A stretch of 64,000 nt of DNA from Lysobacter solisilvae (GTDB taxonomy: Bacteria; Pseudomonadota; Gammaproteobacteria; Xanthomonadales; Xanthomonadaceae), in contig NZ_CP071518.1 in the NCBI RefSeq assembly GCF_016613535.2, positions 2,542,001 to 2,606,000 on the forward strand, given 5' to 3'. Below, piece after piece: positions 49,494 to 51,718 of this stretch (within the stretch, counting starts at the first letter, position 1; every line of letters starts with the position of its first letter). The position numbers were made by a program, and so were the translations under genes. A model generated the notes under the pieces. It saw only the letters and a list, made by a program, of their open reading frames with translations, was not told the origin of the DNA and searched no databases.

Positions 49494-49511
49494 GCAGGTG
49501 TCGGGCGTCAT

Positions 49512-49952
49512 ATGGATGGTCTTACTCTCTTTGAAAGGCGTGTCCTTGACGCTTGTTTAGCCGGCGATGATTCGCGGCTTGACGTGCTGCGCATGCAAGC
49601 TGCCTCCGCGATGGTTGCGGAACGAGAGCACACCGGGGTGGGCGCTTACATCACACTCAAAGTGCCTGACGGAACCCCCGCCTTGTGTGCCGGCTCAATC
49701 ATCCTTGGTGACGTAAATCTTGATGTGGCTGGCGTGGCCAACGGTGTCGCGACCCTCTTGTATGTAACCAGCGGCAAACTCGATTTCATCGAGTTCGCGA
49801 CCTATGACGATGACTGGCCGGAAGATCCGAGTCTCGTCAGCGTTGGGTATCTGCAGTGGGTGCCGAGTAGTTCGGGCGCTTTCTCGGGTGTTCCAGTCAA
49901 AGAACGCGATCCAGAGACACTTGCCTGGCAGCTTCAAGAGCGGGAGGCGTAG
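49512..49952 (+). CDS. Cassette gene 1, soluble protein of unknown function
   Basis: A 146-aa soluble protein without signal or membrane segment. It begins MDGLTLFERRVLDACLAGD, continues with a helix and then GVGAYITLKVPDGTPALCAG, IILGDVNLDVAGVANGVATL and LDFIEFATYDDDWPEDPSL. The acidic TYDDDWP motif and hydrophobic beta core look like a small stand-alone domain; I recall similar sequences among integron cassettes but cannot name a family. Upstream there is no ribosome binding site, which is common for cassettes. Lower GC than neighbours. The stop codon lies seven bases before the first attC remnant. Confidence 0.6.
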   Translation: MDGLTLFERRVLDACLAGDDSRLDVLRMQAASAMVAEREHTGVGAYITLKVPDGTPALCAGSIILGDVNLDVAGVANGVATLLYVTSGKLDFIEFATYDDDWPEDPSLVSVGYLQWVPSSSGAFSGVPVKERDPETLAWQLQEREA

Positions 49953-49958
49953 CATGTC

Positions 49959-50013
49959 GCCTAACAATTCATTCAAGCCGAAGCCGCTTCGCAGCTCGGA
50001 CCAATTCAAGAAC
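49959..50013 (+). other. attC-like site 1, right half eroded
   Basis: GCCTAAC at 49959-49965, a normal L'' segment, and a GCCGAAGCCGCTTCGC core. The right half keeps TCGGACCAATTCAA but the GTTAGGC box is replaced by GAACC. Compared with site 50318 it is recognisable but probably inactive. Confidence 0.6.
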
Positions 50014-50014
50014 C

Positions 50015-50323
50015 ATGATCAAAGCTGCTGAGACAAGAATCTTGCGTGCCCTACTGCGGCAACTCGACGCCCGGTCAACCAGCGTCTTGCAGTCACGCTG
50101 GCTGATCATTTTGATGTGGCCCGTGACAGCGGCCGTATTTCTGGTCTTGTTTCAACTGGAGCCCACAATTGGCTCTGTCGGCATCGCCATAGGTTCAATG
50201 CTGGTAGGGGCAGCAGTGGCTACCGTTGCGATTTATCGAGGCGCTTTTGAGCAGTGGGCGGTAGTTCGGCGCTTCCTCGACCAGGAAGCAATCCGGAGCC
50301 GCCTGCGCGAGCTTGAGGCCTGA
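50015..50323 (+). CDS. Cassette gene 2, small membrane protein
   Basis: A 102-aa protein with two transmembrane helices (RWLIILMWPVTAAVFLVLF; GSVGIAIGSMLVGAAVATV), both ends hydrophilic and Arg-rich (QQ-free; RILRALLRQLDARS; RRFLDQEAIRSRLREL). No family recognised. The stop codon (TGA) is inside the R'' box of the next attC site, as expected for a cassette. Lower GC than chromosome. Confidence 0.6.
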   Translation: MIKAAETRILRALLRQLDARSTSVLQSRWLIILMWPVTAAVFLVLFQLEPTIGSVGIAIGSMLVGAAVATVAIYRGAFEQWAVVRRFLDQEAIRSRLRELEA

Positions 50324-50378
50324 CAATTCGTCCAAGCCGACGCCGCCTTCGCTGCGCAGCTTCACTCAGGCGTTAGGC
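50318..50378 (+). other. attC site 2, complete
   Basis: R'' GCCTGAC at 50318-50324 and R' GTTAGGC at 50372-50378 are complementary in type. Inner arms ATTCGTCCAAGCCGAC and CAGCTTCACTCAGGC match the L''/L' pattern, with a CGCCTTCGCTGCG core. Total 61 bases. This is the most complete attC in the array. Confidence 0.85.
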
Positions 50379-50394
50379 GTGCATAGAAGACCCC

Positions 50395-50769
50395 ATGACT
50401 TTTGAAGACCTGAAGTTCGGCCTCTTCATGGCCTTCGGCGCCCTGGTTGCGGTGGGGTATGTCGTCACCAAAGTTCGCCCGCACGTCGACCTGTATCGCT
50501 CCGGAGAGCCACGTCGCGCCACTTGGCGCACCCGTCGGCCGGCATGGGTGAAGATTGGCCTGTCGCATGTGGGTTCGCGCCAGACTGCGGTCAACTTTGC
50601 GCGCTTTTCGCTGATTGCGGCATTCGTATGGGCGATTCCCGCGGCCTATATTGCGTTCACCCACCCCTTTGCCTTCCTGCCCAGTGTCCTGCTTCTGGTG
50701 GCCGCGGGATGGTATCGACTTTGCGTCCGATGGGTTGATCGCCATGACGCCTGGCCGGATGGGACCTGA
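50395..50769 (+). CDS. Cassette gene 3, small membrane protein
   Basis: A 124-aa protein with about three hydrophobic helices: LFMAFGALVAVGYVVTK near the start, then NFARFSLIAAFVWAIPAAYI, and FAFLPSVLLLVAAGWYRLCV. A basic loop (GEPRRATWRTRRPAWVK) lies between the first two. No family recognised. A GAAGA sequence precedes the ATG. Ends at the third attC site. Confidence 0.6.
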   Translation: MTFEDLKFGLFMAFGALVAVGYVVTKVRPHVDLYRSGEPRRATWRTRRPAWVKIGLSHVGSRQTAVNFARFSLIAAFVWAIPAAYIAFTHPFAFLPSVLLLVAAGWYRLCVRWVDRHDAWPDGT

Positions 50770-50823
50770 CAATGCATTCATGCCGGATCCGCTTCGCGGC
50801 CCGGCTTGATTCTGGCGATGGGC
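50764..50823 (+). other. attC site 3, degenerate R' box
   Basis: R'' ACCTGAC (50764-50770), a palindromic CCGCTTCGCGG core, then CCGGCTTGATTCTGGC and a right box GATGGGC (50817-50823) differing from GTTAGGC. Sixty bases, clearly related to site 2. Confidence 0.7.
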
Positions 50824-50838
50824 CGAAGGGGTAATCAC

Positions 50839-51054
50839 GTGGAAGGTCCGGCAAGAGCTGATTTGTTTGCCCGCCTTGTATGTCTCCTCGTCGGAGCCAT
50901 CTTCGCCTGCGGTTCGGCCTATGGCTTTTCGTTGCCGCGTCCTGGCGCGCTGCCATGGGTGTTGGGCATCGGCGCGGCGGTCAACCTTGTTGCGGGTATA
51001 TTCGGGCCACGACGCCTTCGGGTATGGCTCGCATCGTGGCTGCCCTGGGCCTAG
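50839..51054 (+). CDS. Cassette gene 4, small membrane protein
   Basis: A 71-aa protein with two transmembrane helices (LVCLLVGAIFACGSAYGF and LPWVLGIGAAVNLVAGIFG) and a basic C-terminus (RRLRVWLASWLPWA). GTG at 50839 is preferred because AAGGGG lies 7 nt upstream and it falls just after the attC site; the frame extends upstream into the attC itself. No family recognised. Confidence 0.55.
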   Translation: MEGPARADLFARLVCLLVGAIFACGSAYGFSLPRPGALPWVLGIGAAVNLVAGIFGPRRLRVWLASWLPWA

Positions 51055-51082
51055 CCTGACTACTCGGCCCGAAAATCCAGCC
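51054..51082 (+). other. attC remnant 4
   Basis: GCCTGAC at 51054-51060 followed by TACTCGGCCCGAAAATCC, with no recognisable right half before the next ATG at 51083. A decayed or truncated site. Confidence 0.4.
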
Positions 51083-51475
51083 ATGCCGACCATGAGGCCT
51101 CACTTGAACAATCCCTCGCTGCTTCCGTCGATTCCACCGCGCGCATGGCTCCATGCCGCCGCGCTCCTGGCGCTGGCGACCCTGGCGTTGGCGTTTTTTT
51201 TGGGCCATGGCTTCGCCGCGGACATGTTCCTCTGGGGCAATGCCTTCGTTGCGGGCGCGATATTCGTTCTGTTCGGCCTTGGCGTCTGGGGTCTTCTTAC
51301 CCTTGCTCCATTCGCACGCCGGCCTGCATGGCTTGAGCCTCGACAGGCGATGGCATTGTCCGTTGCTTGTTTTCTCGTTCAATCAGCATTGGCCGGCGCA
51401 CTGACGATGGCCGGCGTGTGGCCACATTCCAGGCTTTGGTTCCTGGGCGCCCTGCCGTTCGTCTGGAGCGGTTGA
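51083..51475 (+). CDS. Cassette gene 5, multi-pass membrane protein
   Basis: A 130-aa protein with about four hydrophobic segments: WLHAAALLALATLALAFFLG, FVAGAIFVLFGLGVWGLLTL, ALSVACFLVQSALAGALTM, and a C-terminal RLWFLGALPFVW. The N-terminus is Pro/Ser-rich. No family recognised. Its stop codon is two bases before the last attC-like site. The start at 51083 is the best in-frame ATG after site 4. Confidence 0.55.
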   Translation: MPTMRPHLNNPSLLPSIPPRAWLHAAALLALATLALAFFLGHGFAADMFLWGNAFVAGAIFVLFGLGVWGLLTLAPFARRPAWLEPRQAMALSVACFLVQSALAGALTMAGVWPHSRLWFLGALPFVWSG

Positions 51476-51476
51476 G

Positions 51477-51537
51477 GCCTATAAATTCATTCAGGTCGAC
51501 AGCCAAATCGCTCGGCGGCTTGATTCGGGCGTTCCGT
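51477..51537 (+). other. attC-like site 5, right end of the array
   Basis: GCCTATAAATTCATTCAGGTC on the left, CTCGGCGGCTTGATTCGGGC on the right and GTTCCGT (51531-51537) in the R' position. Left and right arms match the other sites; the boxes are degenerate. It lies before the ligA upstream region and closes the array. Confidence 0.65.
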
Positions 51538-51718
51538 CCGGACGCGCGCGCACAGGCGGACTCGCCGGCACCGGACTGACTTTGTCTGGCTACGTTCTCC
51601 GGACCACTCTGCGTCCGGTCGAATCCCCCCGGCCCGCTGCCCCGGACTTACGCACTCCGGGCACGCAGGGCAGAATGCAGGCATTCGACCCGCGCGGACG
51701 CCGCGCGCAGGACCGCTC

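Follow-up and report, generated by a model that had tools for sequence, protein, structure and literature searches.

As described for Xanthomonas (PMC12444791), about 50% of the genomes have CALINs at places other than ilvD, where the integrase resides, and in the better sampled species these CALINs occupy seven chromosomal loci; intI is retained in some of the genomes. The array that we describe here, located between zipA and ligA on a Lysobacter chromosome, is like these Xanthomonas CALINs, as it is a cluster of attC sites lying away from the intI locus in a genome of the same family (PMC12444791). However, neither zipA nor ligA is among the CALIN loci named in the available text (lamG, secF, recD and others; PMC12444791), and the Lysobacter genome carries nine satellite clusters. 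Furthermore, the integrase of Xanthomonas is located at ilvD (PMC12444791), whereas that of the Lysobacter genome lies beside a glmS-like gene.

Lysobacter also appears among the genera with attC sites of the Xanthomonadales type in the part of another study that was available (PMC8352920). The sedentary chromosomal integron, as outlined in that part (PMC8352920), is matched by the main array of the present genome, which associates intI with 59 attC sites, but not by the zipA-ligA array, which has no adjoining integrase and in which no attI was seen. A literature search on integrons or attC sites together with zipA-ligA or Lysobacter found no account of the zipA-ligA locus among the papers listed, an absence that constitutes weak evidence. 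Insertion of cassettes at attG sites has reportedly been obtained experimentally by Loot et al. (2024, Nat Microbiol), and such insertion would account for an attC-mediated entry at an ordinary genomic place; for the present locus, the argument is made from sequence data. Overall, the kind of element is already known and the zipA-ligA array is a further CALIN; what stands out is the series of satellites accompanying an intact-looking integron.

The cassette array between zipA and ligA

The window, i.e., the whole 64 kb stretch of DNA that was analyzed, corresponds to positions 2542001-2606000 of a chromosome made of one contig of 3933292 bases (3.93 Mb). Unless a chromosomal position is specified, coordinates are those of the window. 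The stop codon of zipA (48729..49493, plus strand; ZipA_C domain, 129 bits; stop TAG at 49491-49493) and the start of ligA (51719..53824, plus strand; DNA_ligase_aden, 308.6 bits, and other ligase domains) are separated by 2.2 kb. As the sequence-only reading had proposed, this interval holds five small plus-strand ORFs (146, 102, 124, 82 and 130 aa) with a low G+C content (0.60 for the array compared to 0.70 for zipA and 0.71 for ligA), and all five share the direction of both neighbours.

From left to right on the plus strand, ORF 1 (49512..49952, 146 aa, devoid of hydrophobic segment) is followed by an attC site that has lost its right half (49959..50018; 38.7 bits). ORF 2 (50015..50323, 102 aa, two hydrophobic segments) precedes the sole complete attC (50318..50378; 50.5 bits, E 1.8e-14 over the 64 kb window), whose R boxes are GCCTGAC and GTTAGGC. 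The latter site had been announced from the sequence, and the covariance match confirms it. Then come (i) ORF 3 (50395..50769, 124 aa, hydrophobic segments), (ii) an attC whose right box is altered to GATGGGC (50764..50823; 48.3 bits) and (iii) ORF 4 (50806..51054, at most 82 aa from a TTG codon, hydrophobic segments), an open reading frame whose true start is uncertain since the TTG falls within the preceding attC. An R''-like GCCTGAC at 51054..51060, which could be the remnant of a lost attC, is seen in the sequence and has no support from the model. The last cassette carries ORF 5 (51083..51475, 130 aa, hydrophobic segments) and ends with a weak attC (51477..51537; 18.7 bits, E 0.0019), whose two R boxes are unpaired and where the right edge of the array reads G^TTCCGT.

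Upstream of zipA, an smc-like gene (45208-48713, plus strand) is open in three successive frames, the shifts being located, from a reading of the translations, at an A run around 48052 and a C run around 48376; they may be either sequencing indels or true frameshifts. Between 49000 and 51900, no promoter-like site (0.4 expected) and six terminator-like sites (2.9 expected, sd 1.8) were found, neither count being informative.

The sites were scored with a covariance model built from 30 attC sites (26 distinct) that belong to the main integron of the present genome, the sites of the window being excluded, and its structure was set by hand for R2. A first model with a computed structure, which comprised only eight pairs, was set aside. 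Pairing is observed in 90.5% of the cells of the 30 model sites and 14 cells are changed on both sides compared to 5.1 in shuffles, but the number of pairs with two-sided changes (n = 4) is not above that of shuffles (3.5). The sites are related and the count of paired changes stays within that of shuffles, so that the covariation support for the model structure is moderate.

Four stretches of the 64 kb window match the model at E <= 0.01, every one inside the array, and the next-best match reaches 12 bits (E 0.37). The array thus includes three clear sites and one weak site, all within 1.6 kb. Five had been claimed; the fifth, near 51054, is not matched by the model, even when filters are switched off, and keeps just the R''-like motif mentioned above. 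The core motif CAATTCRTTCAAGCCGA, searched with up to three mismatches, occurs four times in the window, always in the array, for a mean of 0.12 in shuffles. A search of Rfam with positions 49300-51800 (E <= 1) returned no match.

The bottom-strand DNA folds of the four sites have z values of -1.86 (50318-50378), -1.20 (50764-50823), -0.40 (49959-50018) and +1.19 (51477-51537), compared to -5.51 for the one attC of the main array that was folded; the stretch 51049-51108 gives -0.44. The site at 50318-50378 is the only one with both R boxes in good form, and its best fold differs from the canonical one. Model scores and DNA folding agree on a graded decay of the sites, a point that the sequence-only reading had made. 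At the left edge, a half attC behind the zipA stop was considered and dropped: it resembles a right half, but 167 one-strand positions of the window score at least as high, and no significant scar was seen at this edge.

The resident integron and the satellite clusters

In the whole genome, one gene passes the TIGR02249 cut-off (chromosome 1327755-1328696, minus strand; 496.7 bits), and none does so inside the window. This integron integrase gene has no internal stop and lies 1.26 Mb from the zipA-ligA array. Residues 28-340 of its 340-aa product can be aligned with IntI4, whose structure is solved (2A3V), and the catalytic residues look present in this alignment. The gene adjoins the glmS-like gene (both within chromosome 1324589-1329300, from a reading of the translation), and an attI-like sequence, GATAATTG^TTAGGC, can be read upstream of the first cassette of the main array. 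Tyrosine recombinases are encoded at five places in the genome, all outside the window. With at least two clustered attC sites and the nearest integrase over the cut-off 1.26 Mb away, the zipA-ligA array fits the local definition of a CALIN. The description of the array as lacking an integrase holds locally but not genome-wide, since an intact intI and its 59-site array are present on the same chromosome.

The genome contains at least 95 attC matches at E <= 0.01, a count that may be low because scoring covered 150 of 4372 first-look candidates, and that includes three of the four sites of the window. They are divided between the main array (59 sites, chromosome 1329211-1358556) and nine other clusters (36 sites), located at about 1.552, 1.774, 2.052, 2.592 (zipA-ligA), 2.630, 3.165, 3.331, 3.348 and 3.880 Mb. 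These satellites have two to seven sites each, those at 1.552 and 3.348 Mb being made of two weak sites (26.7 to 31.8 bits). When two mismatches at most are allowed, a 17-base core is found 76 times in the genome, compared to none for the backwards control. The three clear sites of the window match the model, built exclusively from the main array, at 38.7 to 50.5 bits, which indicates that they belong to the same attC family.

Within the main array, the score of the attC sites drops with the distance from the integrase (Spearman -0.76, 59 sites), with medians of 82.9 bits over the first 27 sites, 68.6 bits over the next 18 and 41.2 bits over the last 14, a fall that is perhaps partly built in since the model was trained on main-array sites, mostly the nearer ones. 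One satellite site (chromosome 3164600-3164659) ties the best sites of the main array at the top score of 92.9 bits, and the satellite that carries it may therefore be recent.

The junction and the cassette genes in other genomes

In the named collection, LigA finds its best match in Lysobacter sp. Root494 (86% identical). Among 80 genomes, including that of the window, 77 gave both zipA and ligA, and 64 of them (own included) have the two genes adjacent, on one strand and no more than 5 kb apart, as do 43 of 46 within the family. The view that they are normally neighbours is thus borne out. In the 63 other genomes with adjacent genes, the median gap is 72 bp, with 12 gaps of at least 500 bp and eight of at least 1000 bp. 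In the two genomes of the same genus, the gaps behind the zipA stop are 111 and 286 bp long; no attC was detected in them at E <= 0.5 with filters off, and neither genome has a relative of ORF 1 or ORF 2. These short gaps argue against an ancestral zipA-ligA locus whose genes would be conserved without attC sites. Together with the attC matches and the adjacency seen elsewhere, they uphold the claim that the cassettes were inserted between the two genes. However, no empty site could be aligned at the base level, as the intergenic sequences of the relatives are too divergent, and the edges of the array are therefore unproven.

A scan with default filters of 63 loci of relatives (some genomes being repeated) covered the junctions of 28 of the 63 adjacent relatives, including all 12 gaps of at least 500 bp, and of further named contigs; the 35 other adjacent relatives have gaps below 500 bp. 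Its three matches were weak (13 to 15 bits, E 0.15 to 0.68) and lay outside the zipA-ligA gaps. With filters off, the two same-genus junctions and the 12 long gaps gave one match at E <= 0.01. It is located in G045, covers 29 bases just behind zipA and is confined to the inner hairpin (model positions 17-44; 16.9 bits, E 0.0047). In the G045 genome, no attC at E <= 1e-4 and no integron integrase were found. We took this match for an ordinary GC-rich hairpin, though it counts against a clean zero.

The idea that the junction is a recurrent attC hotspot of the family was rejected, as all 12 other long gaps are devoid of a full attC match. Ten of them hold other genes, named from a reading of their translations: aminotransferase-like (n = 6), short-chain dehydrogenase-like (n = 2), SMI1-like (n = 1) and GNAT-like (n = 1); those of G030 and G017 have no clear gene. 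The aminotransferase-like and dehydrogenase-like genes recur, without attC, in the zipA-ligA gaps of several genera (G008, G012, G045, G019, G044, G032; G004, G026, L027).

Integron integrases are present in 57 of the 80 genomes (own included), and attC sites of the resident-integron family, at E <= 1e-4, in 56. The sister genome G001 has at least 107 attC sites at E <= 0.01 (150 of 4396 first-look candidates scored, so that the count may be low), of which 101 belong to one array and six lie elsewhere. Abundant satellites are thus not a rule in the genus, as judged from this one mapped genome.

In Pfam (E <= 1), ORFs 1, 2, 4 and 5 have no match and ORF 3 has one, far below the cut-off; in NCBIfam, ORFs 1 to 4 have matches far below the cut-offs only. 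The comparison of ORF 4 covered these two collections and the loci of its own genome. For ORF 3, the protein search gave a single entry, 98% identical, on a 775-base contig, and for ORF 5, apart from its own record, two relatives (72% and 55%). Relatives of ORF 1 were found in five other genomes of 395. The one in G397 (32% identical, with one internal stop) has five attC matches around it, scoring 41 to 85 bits; close to those in G132 and G081, weaker attC matches occur on the other strand; around those in G107 and G220 and at 1.010 Mb of the own chromosome, no attC was detected at E <= 1.

The copy of ORF 1 at 1.010 Mb (within locus L159, chromosome 1008475-1011894) is 44% identical, has a G+C content of 0.73 and follows an ORF with a relative in the main array. 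Given this G+C content and a best attC score of 8.0 bits (E 0.52, filters off), we do not claim that it is an erased array. Relatives of ORF 2, all distant (29 to 36% identity), are present in 36 other genomes of 395, 34 of which belong to one genus, and no attC was found at E <= 0.1 near any of them at the 19 loci checked. A comparison of the five ORFs with the main array and the eight remaining satellites gave no match below E 0.05, the best main-array match of ORF 4 being weak (E 0.086). Since cassettes differ freely, unshared genes do not bar membership in the resident integron.

Origin and fate of the array

We consider it fairly probable that the zipA-ligA stretch is a satellite cassette array with attC sites of the resident family, inserted in trans just past the zipA stop by the resident integrase. 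The analysis established that both loci have attC sites of one family, that the integrase gene is intact and that the two same-genus genomes have no array at the junction. According to this mechanism, the integrase would join the folded bottom strand of a cassette attC to a GTT-type genomic site behind zipA, and further cassettes would then be added at the first one. The terminal site with unpaired R boxes would be the scar expected on the right, since there the cassette half would be joined to the genomic G^TT. The reading is supported by the poor bottom-strand folds of the window sites relative to the main-array site, and by the ORF 1 relative found inside an attC array of G397. It is weakened by (i) the lack of a significant left scar and of an alignable empty site, (ii) the lack of ORF relatives in the main array and the eight other satellites, the only copy in the chromosome being that of ORF 1 at 1.010 Mb, and (iii) the relatives of ORF 2, none of which lies in an attC array at the 19 loci checked.

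A block of the main array could instead have moved into the gap by homologous recombination or rearrangement, independently of the integrase, since sites of one family at ten places supply the necessary repeats. However, nine satellites of two to seven sites would demand many independent moves and the window cassettes are common neither to the main array nor to the other satellites, which makes such a move unlikely. The usual reading of a CALIN, the relic of an independent local integron that lost its integrase, would fit the decayed sites and the lack of a neighbouring integrase gene. We regard it as improbable here because the attC family is that of the resident integron, the sister genomes are empty at the junction and no remnant of an integrase was detected, all five places with a tyrosine recombinase being outside the window.

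It also seems doubtful that the array was acquired by DNA uptake from a strain already carrying cassettes at this junction, although the G+C content of its ORFs is lower than that of the flanks and the relatives of ORF 1 are scattered. Apart from the short partial match in G045, no examined relative has attC at the junction, even in the 12 long gaps, and uptake merely shifts the insertion event to another strain. In our judgement, insertion in trans by the resident integrase is thus the better account of the array.

After insertion, mutations would have abolished the function of the sites, thereby fixing the cassettes, and transcription of their genes would come from the zipA side. Since two working sites are needed for excision and a single one is complete, the cassettes are probably locked in and, judging from their sites, can probably no longer be moved by the integrase. 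Read-through from zipA is possible, as the ORFs and both neighbours have the same direction. More tentatively, and with less confidence than for the origin of this one array, the resident integrase may have seeded all nine satellites (36 of the 95 attC sites), the zipA-ligA array being a late stage in which the sites are recombination-dead and the genes are fixed in a cell-division/DNA-ligase transcription unit.

If this is true, the chromosome displays integron cassettes retired into the genome, a route from integron cassette to ordinary gene that is little documented in natural genomes. The interest of this genome lies in its nine variably decayed satellites beside a working-looking integron: together with the intact integrase gene and the graded main array, they would make the order of events testable in one genome, for which G001, with 101 of its 107 attC sites in one array, is a ready comparison.
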